From contig CALYPL010000007.1 of assembly GCA_945273835.1 (NCBI GenBank), positions 1 through 64,000 on the forward strand: 64,000 bases of DNA, in the 5' to 3' direction. A program made the position numbers and the translations under genes. Positions 655 to 19,520 of this stretch are shown here, piece after piece (within the stretch, counting starts at the first letter, position 1; each line of letters opens with the position of its first letter). The stretch is from an uncultured Dysgonomonas sp. Its GTDB lineage: Bacteria; Bacteroidota; Bacteroidia; Bacteroidales; Dysgonomonadaceae. The notes beneath the pieces are model-generated. The model made no database searches, was not told where the DNA came from, and saw only the letters and a program-made list of their open reading frames with translations.

Positions 655-2778
655 TCACCAGAATTTTACCCTATTGTCTTCTACTTTCATTTTTTCTGTT
701 AGGGCTGATAAAGACTGCATCATCATATAAGTTGTGGTCTGAGATAATTTACTTTTTATTTCAGCTGCATTCATTTCTTTTGTATCTACTGTTTTATTTA
801 TGGCATCAAGGACGTAAACTCCATTTTCACCTTTTAATGGTCCGTCAAGTTTGTTCTGTTGCCCAACTTTGGAATATACGTTAAATACAGGCTCAAATCC
901 TATTCCTGAGATGTTATTTGAATCGAATGTAACAAAATGTACTGAATCAACTCGAGTTCCAATTTGTTGAGCATATGCGTCTAATGATGTCAGATTTTTG
1001 GATTTCAGGTCTTCTATCATTTTAGCGGCTTTCTTGTCTTTTATCAATTCTGCCTTTAGGGTTGCTGAAACTTCTGATTCGGGCATATAACCACTCGGGA
1101 TATCTTGTTTTATTACTGCTATGATACGTTTGTCTGACAAATCGAATTTCTTTATCGATCCTACTTTTTCGTTAAATGCCCAATGGATAACCTGACGTGA
1201 GCCTGGAGTTTGTTGTAAATTGGGCTCTGATGGATAAATCATTGCATCTGAAATGAGATTATATCCTTTGTTTTGCGCATCTGCTTCAATTTTGTCAGGC
1301 TTGCCACTTTCTGTTAAGAATTGGTTTAATTCGTTATCTATTGTATTCTGCGTTTTATCGCTGACTAGAACAGGCATATAGATTGATGCTATTTTTACTT
1401 TAGCTACGGGTTTTGTTTTATCATCTATACGAACTAAGCTGAGATTTCCATTTAAAGATAGTTTCAGAATATCGCCTTTGTTTGCGGCAAAGCATTGTTT
1501 ACCGATTCCGAATGTATTCGCCAACATCATTTCATTAACCCAAACTGCTTCTCCTGCATTACTTCCGGGGGCACGTTCTTGTGCAACTGTGGCAAAATCT
1601 TTTCCTGCTTTTATTACATTTAATAAGCTATCAGCAATTTGATTTGTTATTGTTGCGTCAAGATTTTGAGGCAATGGTAAAACTTGAAGTTTGATTGAGT
1701 CTGGTGCAATTGTCTTGTCAAGCAATTTATACATAACGTAAGATTGGTCATCGCGTATAGGTCCGTATATCTCGTTTATAGATGCTGTTTCTGCAAATTT
1801 CTTTGCATCTTGAGGTAGTGCTGATACTGCTACAAACGCATCGATAAATTGACTTGATGAATACTCGTTTACAACTAAAGCGGGATTGTTTGTGGTCAAT
1901 AATTTGTTTTTTGCTGCATCCATTTCTTTGGCTACGGCATCGTAATCTTCTTCACTCGGTATAACATCTCTTATGAAGTATGATATTTTACGCAAGTCTG
2001 TATCTAATTTATAATTGTTCTTGCGAGTTTCATACAACGCTTTGACTTCGCTTTCGGAAACCTGAATGGTTGAATCGGGAATTGTGTTATATCGCTGAAC
2101 GACATATGCGAAATCTGCTACGTTTTTTGTGTCTTCGAATGATTGTTTTACTTCGCTGTTATTTACTAAGATTGTTTTTGCAAGAAGTGCGTTATATTTT
2201 TCTTCTAAACGTTGATATTTCATCATGTTTTCTATGAAAGCCCATACTTTTTTCAATTCGATCAGTTGGCTTTGTACTTGCACATCTTGTACTGATGAAA
2301 TATCTTGTTTTACTTGGGTCAAAAATTGTGTTAACGCATTTTTGTCAAATTGTCCTGTCTGGGGATCGGTGAAGAAACCAACGCTGTATAATACTGGAGA
2401 GATGTTTGTTCCGTAGGCCATATCATCCATTTCTTCTTGAGAAACTGACAAACCTAATTTTTCTGCCTGATCGGCTAACATCATCTCTTTAACCATCTGC
2501 TGATAGACACTTTCTCTTATCTGTGCTTGTATTGGTTCGTCAAGGGAAGTCACATTTCTTCTAAGTTTTTCAAATGTTTCCCATTCTTCTATTCTATCTG
2601 CATATTTTTTGGTCGGCACAACTTCTCCGTCTACTGAAAATGCTTTATCCTTGAATTTGTTATACCAAGCGTTACCTGATGAAAAAAGGTCTGACAATAT
2701 AAATGCTAATAAGGCTAAACCGAGAATACCAATCAGAAGTCCGGCAGCCTTAGTCCTTAATGTTTGTAATACAGCCAT
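655..2778 (-). CDS. ppiD: SurA_N/PpiD-like peptidylprolyl isomerase, membrane-anchored
   Basis: 707 aa; N-terminal TM (MAVLQTLRTKAAGLLIGILGLALLAFILSDLF), SurA-N-like region, divergent parvulin-like region. Confidence 0.8.
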   Translation of the reverse strand: MAVLQTLRTKAAGLLIGILGLALLAFILSDLFSSGNAWYNKFKDKAFSVDGEVVPTKKYADRIEEWETFEKLRRNVTSLDEPIQAQIRESVYQQMVKEMMLADQAEKLGLSVSQEEMDDMAYGTNISPVLYSVGFFTDPQTGQFDKNALTQFLTQVKQDISSVQDVQVQSQLIELKKVWAFIENMMKYQRLEEKYNALLAKTILVNNSEVKQSFEDTKNVADFAYVVQRYNTIPDSTIQVSESEVKALYETRKNNYKLDTDLRKISYFIRDVIPSEEDYDAVAKEMDAAKNKLLTTNNPALVVNEYSSSQFIDAFVAVSALPQDAKKFAETASINEIYGPIRDDQSYVMYKLLDKTIAPDSIKLQVLPLPQNLDATITNQIADSLLNVIKAGKDFATVAQERAPGSNAGEAVWVNEMMLANTFGIGKQCFAANKGDILKLSLNGNLSLVRIDDKTKPVAKVKIASIYMPVLVSDKTQNTIDNELNQFLTESGKPDKIEADAQNKGYNLISDAMIYPSEPNLQQTPGSRQVIHWAFNEKVGSIKKFDLSDKRIIAVIKQDIPSGYMPESEVSATLKAELIKDKKAAKMIEDLKSKNLTSLDAYAQQIGTRVDSVHFVTFDSNNISGIGFEPVFNVYSKVGQQNKLDGPLKGENGVYVLDAINKTVDTKEMNAAEIKSKLSQTTTYMMMQSLSALTEKMKVEDNRVKFW

Positions 2779-2898
2779 TTGACAATTGTTTATTTGTTAT
2801 GATTATATCTATTTCTACTATTTTTCTTTCTTTTTTATTTGATATTCAGCTTGCGAAGATAATAAATTAGAGTTTAAGAACACTTAAAATGAAGCGTA

Positions 2899-3510
2899 TT
2901 ATTCTCCTTTTTTCTGCTTCGCGCTATCCTCATTCTTTTCATCTTCGTTAAGGTAGAGTTCGGGAGCTTTGACATTTTTCATCTTTATTTGGGTCATTTG
3001 CTGATTCGACTCAAAATCGTCCGCAATGATTGTAGCCTCATTCGGGCTTTTTATAGTAACAGGTTTATTGGAGTAAATACGCTGTTTTTGTTGATCCCAA
3101 AAGATTTCTTCACTCTCAAAGGTTTTGTTCTGAAAATTCCGGATAAACACATTTCCGCGCATCTTCCATAAATTATCACTTATATATCTCCAAACAGTAT
3201 CAGCCCGAAGTGTAACTACTGTATTAAAAAGGGAATCATATTGTTCAAGGTATAATTTGTCTGGAAAAAGCCAAAATGGTTCGCTTGCTTCATCAAACAT
3301 TTTCCATGTTTTTGTGATGACTTTGTATTTAACCATCCCTGAGTCTGAAATCAGCATGGTTACACTATCTGTATTTATGATCGGTATTGTTTCTTTATCA
3401 AATACAAACGTCACTTGATCTTTTGTTTCATTCCGACATGATATAAATAATAATATCATGAATAAAGATAGAACGACCGACCATGATCTATTCATATTGA
3501 AAAATTTCAT
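2899..3510 (-). CDS. lptC: LPS export ABC transporter periplasmic protein LptC-like
   Basis: 203 aa lipoprotein (FISCRNE); LptC-type pattern SEEIFWDQQKQRIYSNKPVTIKSPNEATIIADDFESNQQMTQIKMKNV. Confidence 0.8.
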   Translation of the reverse strand: MKFFNMNRSWSVVLSLFMILLFISCRNETKDQVTFVFDKETIPIINTDSVTMLISDSGMVKYKVITKTWKMFDEASEPFWLFPDKLYLEQYDSLFNTVVTLRADTVWRYISDNLWKMRGNVFIRNFQNKTFESEEIFWDQQKQRIYSNKPVTIKSPNEATIIADDFESNQQMTQIKMKNVKAPELYLNEDEKNEDSAKQKKGE

Positions 3511-3568
3511 TGTGGATTTAGATCGAAAGAATTTTCATAATAAACGGATAGTAATTAATACTGAATGT

Positions 3569-4870
3569 CTAATTTAGTTTCCGTTTTCTGAACCAAAGTT
3601 CATTAATATTCATATTTAACGATATTCCGAAGTATTCCTCTTTAATCATTCCTTTTACTTCCGGATTGATACGTTGATATTCAAGGTTAATATTTATGTA
3701 TGAAACACGCCCTGTCCGATAAAACGATTCGATGAAAGGTAATCCTAAACCAACTGTCACACCATATTCGTTATATCCTTTGGATTGATCGTTGTATTTA
3801 TAATTTAAATAAGAATTACTATAATTGAAACCTGCTCTGTAACGGATCAGTTTAAAATAGTTACGTTCGTATTGTCCATAACGATACTCTGCACCAAAGC
3901 CGAATTTCCATCTGTCGTTAAAACGTTTATCGTCTTCCATTGCGTCGCTCATTAAAGATGTGTATTTTACACTACTCCATTTCTGAAAAGTAACGTCAGC
4001 CCCCAAGGTAAGTTTTTCTCCACGAAGATATGTAAATCCCAAACCGTATGTATCCGGAAAACCTGCATCTATTTTTTTATCTTTTGTGCTGTTATGTTGA
4101 GTCTGGTTATTTTGCCCAAATTCGTAATAATCTTTAGTGACTGAACCTTTATTATTATTACGCGGCGAATACATAGCTCCTATCACAAAGCGATTATTTT
4201 CAGAGGGTTTAAATTCATATTGCGCACCTATATCTAACTTCATTGTACTGATTGAAAGCGTCGTCCTTTGTCTGCTTGAGTTAATGGCGACATCGTCGAA
4301 CTTCAAATTCTTATCATGCTTAGGTTTGCCATACAAGTAGGAAATATTCGCTCCTACTGATAAGCCTTTAAGTGGTGTCAGATATCCGATACCTCCGTAA
4401 ACCTGAGTCAGCCCCCCTGAGCCGTTATAATAAGATGTATATCCTACCCCTTCTTTGGTTTCTTTGTTATCATAGCGATACCCAACTGTGGAATAAGGGA
4501 GCAGACCGAAACTCACTCCTAAACGTTTTGTTACAGGCAAGAGCATCGTTACATAATTTAAGCCCCCGTCGTTCTCAGAAAATGAGCCTACGTTGTCGCT
4601 TAGCTTGGATTTTCGCCAATCAACTCCTATATCAAACAAAAATGTCAACGAATCGACAGCGGAGTATGATGCCGGGTTCAGAGTATTGGCTCCCAAATTG
4701 TTTCTTAAGCCGTAACCGATACCGCCCATACCTTTTGACGGACCTGAAACCTGATCTCTCAACACGCCATAGCCATATCTGCTGTATGGTGAGGTATTTT
4801 GTGCCGCAAGGGGTAATACTATACAAGCCATTAAGGCTAATAAAAGGATATTCTTATTAATTTTTGACAT
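3569..4870 (-). CDS. Putative outer-membrane beta-barrel protein
   Basis: 433 aa; signal peptide ending LAAQNTSPYSRYGYG; alternating aromatic/Gly beta-strand pattern. Confidence 0.7.
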   Translation of the reverse strand: MSKINKNILLLALMACIVLPLAAQNTSPYSRYGYGVLRDQVSGPSKGMGGIGYGLRNNLGANTLNPASYSAVDSLTFLFDIGVDWRKSKLSDNVGSFSENDGGLNYVTMLLPVTKRLGVSFGLLPYSTVGYRYDNKETKEGVGYTSYYNGSGGLTQVYGGIGYLTPLKGLSVGANISYLYGKPKHDKNLKFDDVAINSSRQRTTLSISTMKLDIGAQYEFKPSENNRFVIGAMYSPRNNNKGSVTKDYYEFGQNNQTQHNSTKDKKIDAGFPDTYGLGFTYLRGEKLTLGADVTFQKWSSVKYTSLMSDAMEDDKRFNDRWKFGFGAEYRYGQYERNYFKLIRYRAGFNYSNSYLNYKYNDQSKGYNEYGVTVGLGLPFIESFYRTGRVSYININLEYQRINPEVKGMIKEEYFGISLNMNINELWFRKRKLN

Positions 4871-5585
4871 TATAGTTTAATATTCGGTTTAAACCCTTCA
4901 ATACTAAATTAATATCGACGTGCACATCTGTTCCTAACTGTGACTCGATATAGCGTGTGTGTCCTCCCGTAAGTATAATTTTAATATCGGGATAGGTTTT
5001 CGTTAGAGATGTAATATATGATCTGATTTCGTTTATAACGCCATGTATTACACCTGCTCTTATAGCTGTTTCGGTATTATATCCCATATCGGGTAAATCA
5101 CCATAACGATCTATTATAGGCAATTTATCTGTAAATTGATGTAATGCCTTGAAGCGCATGCTTATTCCCGGCGAAATATTACCTCCTAAATAATTGGCTT
5201 GTGCATCTACAAGTTCGTATGTTATGGCTGTTCCGGCATCAATAACTAAAACGTTATTACCTTTATACATATAACTTGCTTCGACTGCTGCCGCCAAACG
5301 ATCTTGACCCAATGTGGAAGGCGTTTTATATGCATTCTTAATCGGCGAGTTAAGTGTTTCATCAATTATCAGAAAGGTCTTAATATTCGACTGAAGATAA
5401 GAAACTACTTCCGGCGATGATTCAATTACTGAACAGAAGGCACAGCAATCTACTTTATGGGTACTTAGTAATGATGCACAAACAGAAACATTGAAAACTT
5501 CGTAAAGAAAGGTTTCAACAAGCACATCACCATTGAAGATAGCAACCTTAGTTACTGTATTGCCTTGATCTATTATTAAATTCAC
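4857..5585 (-). CDS. coaX: Type III pantothenate kinase
   Basis: 242 aa; MNLIIDQGNTVTKVAIF, LGQDRLAAAVEA, VLVIDAGTAITYELVD, GGNISPGISMRFKALHQFT. Confidence 0.93.
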   Translation of the reverse strand: MNLIIDQGNTVTKVAIFNGDVLVETFLYEVFNVSVCASLLSTHKVDCCAFCSVIESSPEVVSYLQSNIKTFLIIDETLNSPIKNAYKTPSTLGQDRLAAAVEASYMYKGNNVLVIDAGTAITYELVDAQANYLGGNISPGISMRFKALHQFTDKLPIIDRYGDLPDMGYNTETAIRAGVIHGVINEIRSYITSLTKTYPDIKIILTGGHTRYIESQLGTDVHVDINLVLKGLNRILNYNVKN

Positions 5586-5850
5586 AAAAAAAACGAATCA
5601 AATTTGTGCAAAGTAAATTAAAAAAAATAAGTAAAGCGAGTATTTGCCTAAAATGTCGTATTTTTTTTACCTTAAAAAGTAATAATAAACTTCTTACAGA
5701 TGCTCGGTTGTTATGAATCTGATAATCGGGTTTGTGAAAGCACAATGAATATTTGAAACTAAACTTCGATTTTTACAAATGTTTCAGACTAATATTAATC
5801 TTAGATCTATTAATTTTAAATAACTTCGTAAATTGATAAATACATCAGGG

Positions 5851-6558
5851 ATGAGCAAATCTAAACTATATAAAATTAATCAGCGATTGGATGTTTTAGG
5901 TTCAATCAAAGATATAAGTTGGTTTCTGATACTCTTCCTGTTTTTCGAGTTTATCTGGAAAGTCTGTGTGCATCAAGGTGAAGATGAAAGTATACTGATC
6001 GTATTAGGCAAAGACATGACTTCATGGGCTTATCCGCTCAGTAGATTTACGGCTAAAACGGTTTATTGGGTTATACACGATCTGTTCGGATACTCAGATT
6101 TCCAAGTTGATGGAATACTTCTTTATTTTAAAGACTCTTTATTTAAAACAAATATTGTTTGGGGATGTGTGGGAGTTAAACAATTGCTGATGTTTACGTT
6201 CATCATCTTATTTTATTTCGGCCCCCTTAAAAAGAAAATCTGGTTTATCCCTTTGTTTATTTTAGTTTTGATACTGATTAATATTTTACGGATCACCATT
6301 ATTTGCTTCATCACTAAAAATCCATTTCCGGAGTGGTTTATTGGGGTAAATACTTGGTACAATAATCGGATTTGGATAAACAATAAAGAAACTTTTAACT
6401 TATTTTATCAAGATTGGTTCAATGTATTTCATCATGACATTTTCACTTGGATCTATTATGACGGGATTTTATTTCTGATCTGGCTTTTCTGGGAAGAACG
6501 CTTTAATAAACCATATCAGAAGTTGAAAAATAAAATTAAATCTGATTCTCAAGCTTAA
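5851..6558 (+). CDS. Exosortase/archaeosortase family protein
   Basis: Polytopic membrane protein with candidate catalytic residues: Cys in IVWGCVGVKQLLMF, Arg in ILINILRITIICF, His in FNVFHHDIFTWIYYDGILFLIWLFW. ATG at 5851 preferred over the TTG at 5833. Confidence 0.82.
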   Translation: MSKSKLYKINQRLDVLGSIKDISWFLILFLFFEFIWKVCVHQGEDESILIVLGKDMTSWAYPLSRFTAKTVYWVIHDLFGYSDFQVDGILLYFKDSLFKTNIVWGCVGVKQLLMFTFIILFYFGPLKKKIWFIPLFILVLILINILRITIICFITKNPFPEWFIGVNTWYNNRIWINNKETFNLFYQDWFNVFHHDIFTWIYYDGILFLIWLFWEERFNKPYQKLKNKIKSDSQA

Positions 6559-7736
6559 TTCTTATTCTTTTTAAGAAAGCGTTTAAAATTCATACGATCA
6601 TACATTTGAGTTATATCAAGTAATGGCAGTGAAAATATAAACCGACCAGCTTTGAAGTATTTCGCTGAATTATTTAAAACTATCAATTGTTTTAGGTATC
6701 GCACCAGAAACAAAATAATACTTGAGCCAAGCATTATTAAATCGGCTGAAAAAGCTGAATAAATTATTGAAACGACAAACAGTATGTAAAACAAGCAACG
6801 TGTTGTATATTCAGCTGAAAAAGATTTTGCGCTAAATCCTTCAAAATACTTATTTAACAACAATCCACTGCGTTTTAATTGCTTCCATAAAGACTTGCTA
6901 TATAAATCTGTCTCAATAAAAGATGCTTGTGACAAGGCAACAGATGTATTAGTTCCATTCATTATTCTGTTGATAAACAAATCTTCTCCGTTTGCAATAT
7001 TTAGTAACGATGAAAATCCTTTATGAGCCATGAATAACTCTTTACGAAAAGCAACATTTCTAAAAACTCCGGTATAAGGTTTATTTTTTAATGCCATAGA
7101 AAGATATTGCAAACTATACAATAAATTCCTAAAGCGCGCTCCTCTGTTAAATAGTTTATGCCTGTCTGTTTTGTAGTATGAATAACCAAGCACAACTTCG
7201 GTGCTTTCATTCATTTCAGCCATCATGGATGAAATCCAATTGCTGGATATAGGCTTGCAATAGGGATCTGTAAAAAGCAGAATATCACCAGTAGTTGCTT
7301 TAATACCTAAAGTCAGCGTTAATTTACGTCGAGCAAAATTCTTATCCGGTGATATAGGTAAATAAGTACTATATAAATGTGGATATTTGAGTTTGAGGGA
7401 TTGGAGCAAAATATCACTCTCATCGGTTGATCCGTCGTTAACAACTATTACTTCAAAATTTGGATAGTCTTGCTCAAGCACCAAGGGTAAGTTTTGTGAT
7501 AGATACTCGGATTCGTTTTCTGACACGATAATAACGGAAACCTTCGGGCAATCAGATGGTGTTGCCAGATTCTTGTTTTCGGAGTTTCGTCTATTTGCTT
7601 CTTTTAATGGTTTCTGATAATATGAAATGTAGTAATATAACTGGATAATTAAGCATATAAAAAGCGTGCTTAACAAAATAATATCAATAATATCAAAATT
7701 AATTGAATGCTGAATTTGTTGAATTACTTTTTCCAT
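6555..7736 (-). CDS. GT2 family glycosyltransferase, membrane associated
   Basis: 393 aa; N-terminal TM, PKVSVIIVSENESEYLSQNLPLVLEQDYPNFEVIVVNDGSTDES, C-terminal TM segments. Confidence 0.88.
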   Translation of the reverse strand: MEKVIQQIQHSINFDIIDIILLSTLFICLIIQLYYYISYYQKPLKEANRRNSENKNLATPSDCPKVSVIIVSENESEYLSQNLPLVLEQDYPNFEVIVVNDGSTDESDILLQSLKLKYPHLYSTYLPISPDKNFARRKLTLTLGIKATTGDILLFTDPYCKPISSNWISSMMAEMNESTEVVLGYSYYKTDRHKLFNRGARFRNLLYSLQYLSMALKNKPYTGVFRNVAFRKELFMAHKGFSSLLNIANGEDLFINRIMNGTNTSVALSQASFIETDLYSKSLWKQLKRSGLLLNKYFEGFSAKSFSAEYTTRCLFYILFVVSIIYSAFSADLIMLGSSIILFLVRYLKQLIVLNNSAKYFKAGRFIFSLPLLDITQMYDRMNFKRFLKKNKN

Positions 7737-16525: not shown

Positions 16526-19000
16526 ATGAAAATCAGAGTGCTATTAGTTCTAACATTGATTTTTCCCTTTTCTTTAAAAGGACAGATTCAGGAGAATTTA
16601 ACTGAAAATGATAATAGGGCAAAGAATACAATTTTTTACAACAGAGGAGATATGTATGTTGCGCCCAATAAATCTGACGCCAATACATCTACCATTTTTG
16701 TTCAAGGATCAATTAAAGTTGTCGTTGGTAGTAATATCCGCCAAATGGGTGTTACTTCGCTAATCGGCGATTTTATAAGTAGTGATACCGACAATGCAAA
16801 TTCAAGCAACAGAAATATCTTTTTAAACACTCCTTCTCAGCCAAGTACAGGTACAATAAGATTTATGAATGCCCATAATATGGAAAATCCATTATCTGTT
16901 GCCTATGGTCAAGCTACGAATACCGGCAACGGTAAGAAATCAGTTTTCGGGAATATTTCAGAATTGACAGAGCTCAAAGACATCAGACTAAATACGAAAC
17001 AAGAGATCAGACTTGAGGGTGGTGCAAACAAAAAACATGATTACATAGACTTCCCAAATGTGGAGCTAGCAGACAATACCTATGTAGCTTTAAAAGCCGA
17101 TGCTGCGGCAACAATAAAAAAACTAATAACAAATTATGGATCCGTATTCTCTGTTGAGGGGCGTTACCAACGTAGTGGTGGTGTCCCAGGAATCAATGGC
17201 GAAGGAATACTATATGGACATCTCATATTAAGAGAAAAATCAGAGAGAAAATTCAAAGCAGTTACAGACCCCAATGCCATTTTTTCAAACGGGACCCTTC
17301 AAAGTAATTACTCATATCATATGTTAGATGTATCATTATATGATTATTCAGATTTTGGAACAAACAAGAACCGTCCTACGTCTGATAAATTTACGGATGC
17401 AGCAGTACATTTAAGTGGAATAACCTCACCTTTCAAAAAGCTAAGCAATAGTTATTTTATGTTCCATACAATCTTTAATCCGACAAAAATATGGGACAAA
17501 TTTGAGCCAAATATCAATCCTAAAGAATTTATAAATGCAGGAGAAGGATATACGGTTGCCATGGAACTATCTGACAATGACCATTCTGATATTGAATCAA
17601 ACTGGCATGTCAATCGTGAAGAACGTGCAGCAGGAGGATTTCAATTTTCGACATTATTCTTAGCCCAGAAATCAAATTTCTTAATCGGCAGTAAAAGGAA
17701 AATAAAAGATCCGATTAGTCAAAATGAGTTAACAAATACTGATTTTCAAAATTATTGGGAAAATGAAGAGTTTTTAAATACATCTTTGAGTTCCTCAAAC
17801 GACATTGTAAAGGTTGAATTAAAAGAAACAAGAGATTTACCAAATCAAAGATCTAAATTCTTTTTAGCAAATCCTTTTTTAGCACCATTCGAATTAACAG
17901 CATTAATGCATGGTATAGAAGCCAATAGCGAGGATGCTCGTAAATTGGGTGTAACTGCCGGCAATGATCCTGCATCATATAATCTTAACTCTGCATTCTG
18001 GGTTTTAAACCAATCTGCGTTAGAATACAAGCCTAATATAATGGCTAATTTTTACCGCTTAAATTATCTAAGCTATAAGAGGGCAGGCGCAACCGGATAT
18101 TTAGGAGTAGATGAGGTTAGCAGTCGTTATTTTATTGCACCTCAACAAATATTTGCGGTTGAGGTCGGCAACCTTCCAAATAAAGTGGAATTCAATTTTC
18201 ACCCCGATTACGTTTCACATAACCACTTAATAGCCACTAAAAGCGGTATAGAACAAACAATAAAAGATGAGTTTCTTATTCAAGTTATTGATGAAGATGA
18301 CAATACAGAAGACCGACTTGCAGTAGTTTTTCGAGATGATGCAACATCTGCTTATGGAGAAAGAGGCGACAAATATGACGATAGAAAAGACGACTTGAAA
18401 TATCGCTTAAATACAAAAGTCGGAATAATGGAAGAACAACGTAGGGCCGCCATATACACTAAAACAATTGACGGTAAAGAAATGCGTACAAATGCTGTGC
18501 CTACTAATACCAAATCTTTGCCTCTTTATGTAACACCTACAGTTACCCCAAAAAGGTTGGTATTAAAACCTTACCGATTGGAAACACTCCAATCAGTTGA
18601 AGGAGTATGGCTAGAGGATAAACAACAGAAAAACATTATTCAATTGCATCCCGATACAGAATACGCATTTGAATCAACAATCGAGAATGATAGATATGCC
18701 CAAGAAAATAGATTTGTTCTGCATTTTTCAAAATTAGACATAAATGATAATATTGCTGATACACAGTCTCCAATATTTTGCTACTATCAAAACTCTATTT
18801 TATTTATTAGAGGGTTAAGCTCTATTGACATTAATAGTAAGGTTGAAATATTCGACCTGCAAGGAAGATTGATAACGCAAACAAAAATAGATAATGCACC
18901 TGATATGTCGTATGCTAAACATCTGGATATCGGAACTTATATAGTTAGAATCACAGGTAACAGAAATTACACGACTAAGATCATGAGTTTATCAAAATAA
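16526..19000 (+). CDS. Large secreted protein with T9SS type A C-terminal sorting domain
   Basis: 824 aa; signal peptide MKIRVLLVLTLIFPFSLKGQ; C-terminus VEIFDLQGRLITQTKIDNAPDMSYAKHLDIGTYIVRITGNRNYTTKIMSLSK typical of type A CTDs. Confidence 0.82.
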   Translation: MKIRVLLVLTLIFPFSLKGQIQENLTENDNRAKNTIFYNRGDMYVAPNKSDANTSTIFVQGSIKVVVGSNIRQMGVTSLIGDFISSDTDNANSSNRNIFLNTPSQPSTGTIRFMNAHNMENPLSVAYGQATNTGNGKKSVFGNISELTELKDIRLNTKQEIRLEGGANKKHDYIDFPNVELADNTYVALKADAAATIKKLITNYGSVFSVEGRYQRSGGVPGINGEGILYGHLILREKSERKFKAVTDPNAIFSNGTLQSNYSYHMLDVSLYDYSDFGTNKNRPTSDKFTDAAVHLSGITSPFKKLSNSYFMFHTIFNPTKIWDKFEPNINPKEFINAGEGYTVAMELSDNDHSDIESNWHVNREERAAGGFQFSTLFLAQKSNFLIGSKRKIKDPISQNELTNTDFQNYWENEEFLNTSLSSSNDIVKVELKETRDLPNQRSKFFLANPFLAPFELTALMHGIEANSEDARKLGVTAGNDPASYNLNSAFWVLNQSALEYKPNIMANFYRLNYLSYKRAGATGYLGVDEVSSRYFIAPQQIFAVEVGNLPNKVEFNFHPDYVSHNHLIATKSGIEQTIKDEFLIQVIDEDDNTEDRLAVVFRDDATSAYGERGDKYDDRKDDLKYRLNTKVGIMEEQRRAAIYTKTIDGKEMRTNAVPTNTKSLPLYVTPTVTPKRLVLKPYRLETLQSVEGVWLEDKQQKNIIQLHPDTEYAFESTIENDRYAQENRFVLHFSKLDINDNIADTQSPIFCYYQNSILFIRGLSSIDINSKVEIFDLQGRLITQTKIDNAPDMSYAKHLDIGTYIVRITGNRNYTTKIMSLSK

Positions 19001-19031: not shown

Positions 19032-19418
19032 ATGAAATTGAAATTTAAAATATTAGTTCTGACTATTTCAATTCTAAGTATATTATTAGGTGGTAATATT
19101 AAAGTATATGCTTATAATGATTACTCTGATGCCACTTTAGCTCCTACCAACGGAGAAAAGCCTTCAGAATCTTTCCTTCAAAGAAGCAAGAAATCACTGG
19201 CATTGGACATGCAAGGTGTATCTTCCAGCTCAATAACAACTTTTTCATCTAATCCATTTTCCGACCCGGACGATCTCTTCGAAGATATTGGAGAAATAAA
19301 CGAAGGGAATATGGGTTCGAGTCCAATCGGAGATGCTACATTACCAATAATACTGTCTTTAATATTGTTATTTTTAGTTTATAGAGGTGTAACTATAAAC
19401 ATCCGGAAGAACTTATAG
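19032..19418 (+). CDS. Small exported protein with C-terminal motif-TM-basic tail (putative sorting signal)
   Basis: 128 aa; N-terminal signal peptide; C-terminus SSPIGDATLPIILSLILLFLVYRGVTINIRKNL; 31 nt downstream of the T9SS-type gene. Confidence 0.7.
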   Translation: MKLKFKILVLTISILSILLGGNIKVYAYNDYSDATLAPTNGEKPSESFLQRSKKSLALDMQGVSSSSITTFSSNPFSDPDDLFEDIGEINEGNMGSSPIGDATLPIILSLILLFLVYRGVTINIRKNL

Positions 19419-19437
19419 TTTGACATACATAATATAT

Positions 19438-19472
19438 AAATAAACAGCCGGATTATTTCCGGCTGTTTATTT
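19438..19472 (+). terminator. Strong Rho-independent terminator
   Basis: ataaacagccgga-ttatt-tccggctgtttat, followed by T-rich sequence. Confidence 0.8.
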
Positions 19473-19520
19473 ATATAAAATTCAATCTGATTATGGTCTA
19501 TTGATTCTGGAAAAATGAAT

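Follow-up and report, generated by a model that had tools for sequence, protein, structure and literature searches.

The operon and its small PIGD-tailed gene

The window, meaning the whole 64,000-nucleotide stretch that was analyzed, comes from a genome that falls in Dysgonomonas, a genus of gut bacteria, and its relevant features are collected in Table 1. The small gene encodes a protein with a signal peptide, a variable middle and a tail made up of the PIGD motif, a short hydrophobic helix and a basic end. Its C-terminus reads SSPIGDATLPIILSLILLFLVYRGVTINIRKNL, with the hydrophobic stretch at residues 104-117 and the basic end at residues 118-128. The open reading frame, the signal peptide and this C-terminal layout agreed exactly with the first-pass annotation of the same DNA. 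No match to the protein was found in NCBIfam, Pfam or PHROGs scans, and the window as a whole gave no Rfam or tRNA matches.

Table 1. Features of the window discussed in the text, with positions counted from its first nucleotide
Feature	Position	Strand	Basis or remark
Exosortase-family enzyme, 241 aa from TTG 5833; alternative ATG at 5851	5833..6558	+	TIGR04178, PF09721
Glycosyltransferase family 2 gene	6555..7736	-	Usual convergent neighbor of the exosortase in Dysgonomonas
T9SS cargo protein, 824 aa, type A C-terminal domain; first gene of the operon	16526..19000	+	TIGR04183; family profile A4
Small PIGD-tailed secreted protein, 128 aa; proposed exosortase substrate	19032..19418	+	ATG start
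N-terminal Sec signal peptide, residues 1-27	19032..19112	+	Read by eye
Second conserved stretch, close to the mature N-terminus (KPSESFLQRSKKSLA here)	19158..19202	+	
C-terminal sorting tail, residues 95-128: G-x-x-PIGD-x-x-LP, hydrophobic helix, basic end	19314..19415	+	
PIGD motif, residues 98-101; presumed exosortase recognition or cleavage region	19323..19334	+	Function presumed
20-pair stem-loop closing the operon	19433..19477	.	Terminator-like call on the minus strand; just downstream of the plus-strand small gene

The cargo gene and the small gene are separated by 31 bp and, given the stem-loop that follows, the small gene was taken as the last of a two-gene operon. The cargo carries a type A sorting domain by TIGR04183 (32.4 bits, cut-off 23), and scored below the cut-off of Pfam PF18962 (19.9 vs. 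27). Its AlphaFold model, built from the single sequence, was unusable except for a weak beta C-terminal domain (mean pLDDT 31). Orthologues of the small protein were found in 22 other Dysgonomonas genomes (61 genomes searched), all of them 30-87 bp behind a T9SS cargo gene of the same kind, and diverged orthologues were found in four further genera. The upstream gene belonged every time to one and the same T9SS cargo family. The main context of the small gene is this constant pairing with the cargo gene in one operon, which the first-pass annotation had missed.

Within Dysgonomonas, conservation is highest in the tail, where the mean top-residue frequency is 0.69, vs. 0.48 in the middle of the protein. 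In the tail, Gly95 and Pro98 are invariant, and the C-termini align readily to the consensus GNVGAPIGDVTLPIxLSILxLYxxYRGVTTSRRKNNL. The second conserved stretch reads LPSxSYLKxEKRSIA in the relatives and LPSxxYYxxNI in the other genera. Genomes G117 and G121 carry the diverged tails TPIEDGIVPLAFAITLYGMYVLYRRR and APIGEIPVISFILLSVGYAVFRMRK (PIED and PIGE in place of PIGD), directly behind the same cargo family. A chance hydrophobic C-terminus was considered and dropped, as the tail is conserved across about 30 genomes. The orthologue of G002 (L002, around 1501-1869) has a mid-gene in-frame TGA (SYLQ*EKRS) with the tail intact, and is either a pseudogene or a sequencing error.

Paralogues in the same genome were sought by profile only; the tail-profile search recognized one copy, and no other protein of the genome matched. 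One match per genome is the rule; a general anchoring signal of many proteins was not supported, and this reading gives way here to that of a dedicated substrate. Some genomes have more than one small-protein operon: the Dysgonomonas MAG G007 has a second one (L309:1977-2336, G007:C328), in which a further T9SS cargo gene is followed by the gene of a 119-aa protein that ends in TPIGDALPLLSILTLLYGVFLYRKNKPKLIQEE. A second cargo paralogue lies in the genome of the window (L305:4843-7032; G000:C5:107851-110004, minus strand). The next gene there encodes a 187-aa protein resembling an outer-membrane barrel, and no small PIGD gene follows; the cargo can therefore occur on its own.

The exosortase and its co-occurrence with the operon

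The exosortase-family enzyme that had been noted in the window is real, with scores above cut-off for both TIGR04178 (51.8 bits, cut-off 23) and Pfam PF09721 (37.7, cut-off 25.7). Cys106, Arg147 and His194 (numbered from the ATG form) were invariant in two sets of 17 and 26 sequences, and this invariance spans the Dysgonomonadaceae enzymes and the XrtX-like enzymes of other Bacteroidales. The Dysgonomonadaceae exosortases have about 35 extra residues between the Arg and the His (PEWFIxVNEWYN...FYxDWFN), which are absent from the other Bacteroidales enzymes compared. The AlphaFold model of the enzyme was confident (pLDDT 90.5); it had no Foldseek match among PDB and viral structures, and no sequence relatives were found in the PDB.

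The exosortase lies 13 kb from the small gene, and the two loci are not neighbors in Dysgonomonadaceae. The genes flanking the exosortase at 655-5585 of the window are ppiD-like, lptC, BamG-family (NF053685, 327 bits) and pantothenate-kinase-like; most of the Dysgonomonadaceae genomes examined keep the first three beside it. In Dysgonomonas sp. PH5-45 (L223:10001-18158) the exosortase is convergent with the T9SS translocon gene sprA, with an overlap of a few bases. The Dysgonomonas MAG G020 carries a second exosortase of XrtX-like type with about 39% identity (L205:4298-4921, G020:C490), on a contig that is possibly a contaminant (MAG contamination 6%).

Co-occurrence was surveyed across 101 Dysgonomonadaceae genomes from 15 genera, using the tail profile A3. 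The exosortase was found in 33 genomes, belonging to only five genera. Of the 30 genomes matched by the tail profile, 29 also had the exosortase; the exosortase-positive G117 and G121 were missed by the profile and have their diverged tails in the same operon. In the cleaned table, 31 genomes had both exosortase and operon, 67 had neither and none had one alone, the three exceptions being incomplete MAGs. Two of these, G001 and G008, are 51-55% complete. The third, G006, is the only tail-positive, exosortase-negative genome; the adjacent glycosyltransferase gene is also absent, so the assembly probably lacks the stretch that would carry the exosortase. A tail that was common in genomes lacking an exosortase would have spoken against the enzyme link; the survey came out in favor of that link, with G006 the lone case. 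The cargo family was present in 33 of the 101 genomes and followed the exosortase/tail pattern, bar incomplete genomes and G120, where the cargo match is weak and C-terminal and no small gene lies behind.

The genome-level P value (about 1e-26) overstates independence, because the five positive genera may share descent. At genus level, a test with few independent points, five genera had both exosortase and operon, ten had neither and none had one alone (P = 0.0003). If the five positive genera form one clade, common ancestry may account for part of the co-occurrence. A mere T9SS effect was dropped on the SprA control: the translocon SprA was present in 88 of the 101 genomes, so T9SS alone does not explain the pattern. 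The proposal that the tail behaves as an exosortase-type C-terminal signal was supported: across Dysgonomonadaceae its distribution tracks that of the exosortase and not that of T9SS.

An uncleaved small protein, serving as inner-membrane partner of the T9SS cargo (a single-pass anchor, chaperone or export adaptor) and coinciding with the exosortase by shared descent in one clade, would also suit the invariable operon, the few independent genera and the exosortase gene that is unlinked to the operon. We consider this unlikely, however, since many T9SS-positive Dysgonomonadaceae genera lack both exosortase and operon, and since a conserved motif just outside the membrane followed by a basic end is the layout of exosortase and archaeosortase signals. 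Moreover, an analogous gene adjoins the exosortase elsewhere in the order, where the co-occurrence holds over 205 genera.

PID-CTERM, exosortase X and other sorting systems

That wider comparison covered 393 Bacteroidales genomes, of which 153 had an exosortase, 101 the PID-CTERM signal of NCBIfam and 90 both (Fisher P = 2.5e-34). By a hand tally of genera, an exosortase was found in 61 of the 64 with PID-CTERM, vs. 90 of 205 overall. The PID-CTERM gene directly adjoins the exosortase in G046, G053, G182, G226, G261 and G324. G174 and G278 (genus g89) have PID-CTERM above cut-off and no exosortase at the sensitivity used, through either a missed enzyme or a real exception. Forty PID-CTERM loci were sampled, and a same-strand upstream ORF was readable at 33; it carried a T9SS type A domain at 27 of these, against a background of 4 in 772 ORFs from the same order. 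As 27 of 33 PID-CTERM genes follow a T9SS cargo gene, the operon in the window is regarded as the Dysgonomonadaceae form of a general arrangement. A literature search, which covered part of the literature, found no description of such an arrangement of T9SS cargo and small exosortase-type protein, and no papers on PID-CTERM, on XrtX as an exosortase or on exosortases in Dysgonomonas.

The small protein has the architecture by which PID-CTERM proteins are defined (signal peptide, motif, hydrophobic helix, basic C-terminus). Like the short secreted Bacteroidota proteins of PID-CTERM (NF046080) and exosortase X (NF046081), it combines P-I-x-x with a short helix and a basic end; PID-CTERM likewise co-occurs with an exosortase, and many of its genes lie directly behind a T9SS cargo gene. 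The motifs differ, with PIDGG and an AAGxAYGAKK-type helix in PID-CTERM and PIGD-x-x-LP with YRGVTTSRRR in the window, where the exosortase is also not adjacent to the operon. Against NF046080 (cut-off 26) the small protein gave no match at E<=10, nor did any protein of its own genome or the other Dysgonomonadaceae proteins tested, whereas proteins of other Bacteroidales, tested likewise, scored 28-48. The exosortase scored 37 bits on NF046081, below its cut-off of 170, which is partly explained by the extra stretch between Arg and His; the PID-associated enzymes tested in Bacteroidales themselves scored only 68-136. The PIGD and PID tail profiles were not significantly similar (hhalign E 0.04), and the tails are therefore not put forward as homologous.

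By the curated cut-offs, then, the small protein falls outside PID-CTERM and the enzyme outside XrtX. That the pair nevertheless belongs to PID-CTERM/XrtX, and hence is nothing new, would fit the shared architecture, T9SS-cargo operon layout, enzyme superfamily and order, as well as the PIED or PIGE of some diverged relatives. It is made quite improbable by the missing NF046080 matches, by the low XrtX score together with the extra residues, and by the tail profiles, which are not significantly similar. The tail and the enzyme look like Dysgonomonadaceae counterparts of the PID-CTERM/XrtX pair. The first-pass annotation had raised a possible undescribed Bacteroidota anchoring system; in kind the system is not wholly undescribed, PID-CTERM/XrtX being a named analogue in the same phylum.

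More distant systems were compared in the same way. PEP-CTERM and its exosortase (EpsH/XrtA) share the tripartite C-terminal signal, the exosortase superfamily and the catalytic Cys/Arg/His. The window system differs in lacking a PEP motif and in having one recognizable substrate rather than dozens; no EPS cluster surrounds its enzyme, and no PEP-CTERM model of NCBIfam matched the small protein. Archaeosortase A of Haloferax volcanii belongs to the same enzyme superfamily and acts on PGF-CTERM, again a short motif, helix and basic end, with C-terminal processing of the substrate followed by lipid attachment (PMC9263693); its substrate is an archaeal S-layer protein, and its motif and helix sequences are unrelated to the tail in the window. 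XrtF with its partner protein in Flavobacterium johnsoniae is also a Bacteroidota exosortase, and xrtF and T9SS genes were recovered there in one surface-colonization screen (PMC10936215). The enzyme of the window scored 30.6 on the XrtF model (cut-off 90). In other bacteria, exosortase loss damages biofilm and surface adhesion (PMC12188702; for F. johnsoniae XrtF, along with T9SS genes, PMC10936215).

A proposed exosortase substrate with a T9SS-exported partner

Our preferred reading, to which we give a probability of about three in four, is that the small protein is a dedicated exosortase substrate, cut near PIGD, that works at the cell surface together with the partner exported by T9SS. It builds on the gene structure, the conserved tail, the co-occurrence with the exosortase, the operon and the conserved catalytic residues; co-occurrence with a cognate exosortase, by which the exosortase-substrate class is recognized, was found here as well. 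The protein would be exported by Sec and stay anchored in the inner membrane through its C-terminal helix, the basic end facing the cytoplasm. The exosortase (Cys-Arg-His) would then cut at or beside the PIGD motif, by analogy with archaeosortase A processing, so that a soluble peptide of some 65-75 residues is released or transferred into the periplasm. This peptide may be attached to a lipid or glycan. The upstream protein of about 800 aa would cross the outer membrane by T9SS, and the two could act together as a two-part cell-surface or matrix component. An exosortase acting instead on other, unrecognized proteins, with the PIGD protein a bystander, would accord with F. johnsoniae XrtF, which has no known target (PMC10936215, PMC12188702). 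It is extremely improbable: no second tail-profile match occurs in the genome, and the presence and absence of exosortase and PIGD protein track closely.

A bolder extension of the dedicated-substrate reading is put forward tentatively, as possible though not probable: two export routes may be coupled in one Bacteroidales operon, T9SS for the large protein and exosortase processing for its partner, with the processed peptide needed at the surface to anchor or assemble the cargo or to link it to a glycan.

The literature found calls the targets of Bacteroidota exosortases unknown (F. johnsoniae XrtF; PMC10936215, PMC12188702), and the small PIGD protein offers a specific, testable candidate substrate in the culturable genus Dysgonomonas. 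The wider Bacteroidales rule, by which a T9SS cargo gene is directly followed by the gene of a small exosortase-type protein, links two surface-display systems that are normally studied apart. If the coupling is true, exosortase and T9SS would form one surface-display pathway across Bacteroidales, in which the PIGD and PID tails serve as alternative codes for recognition.
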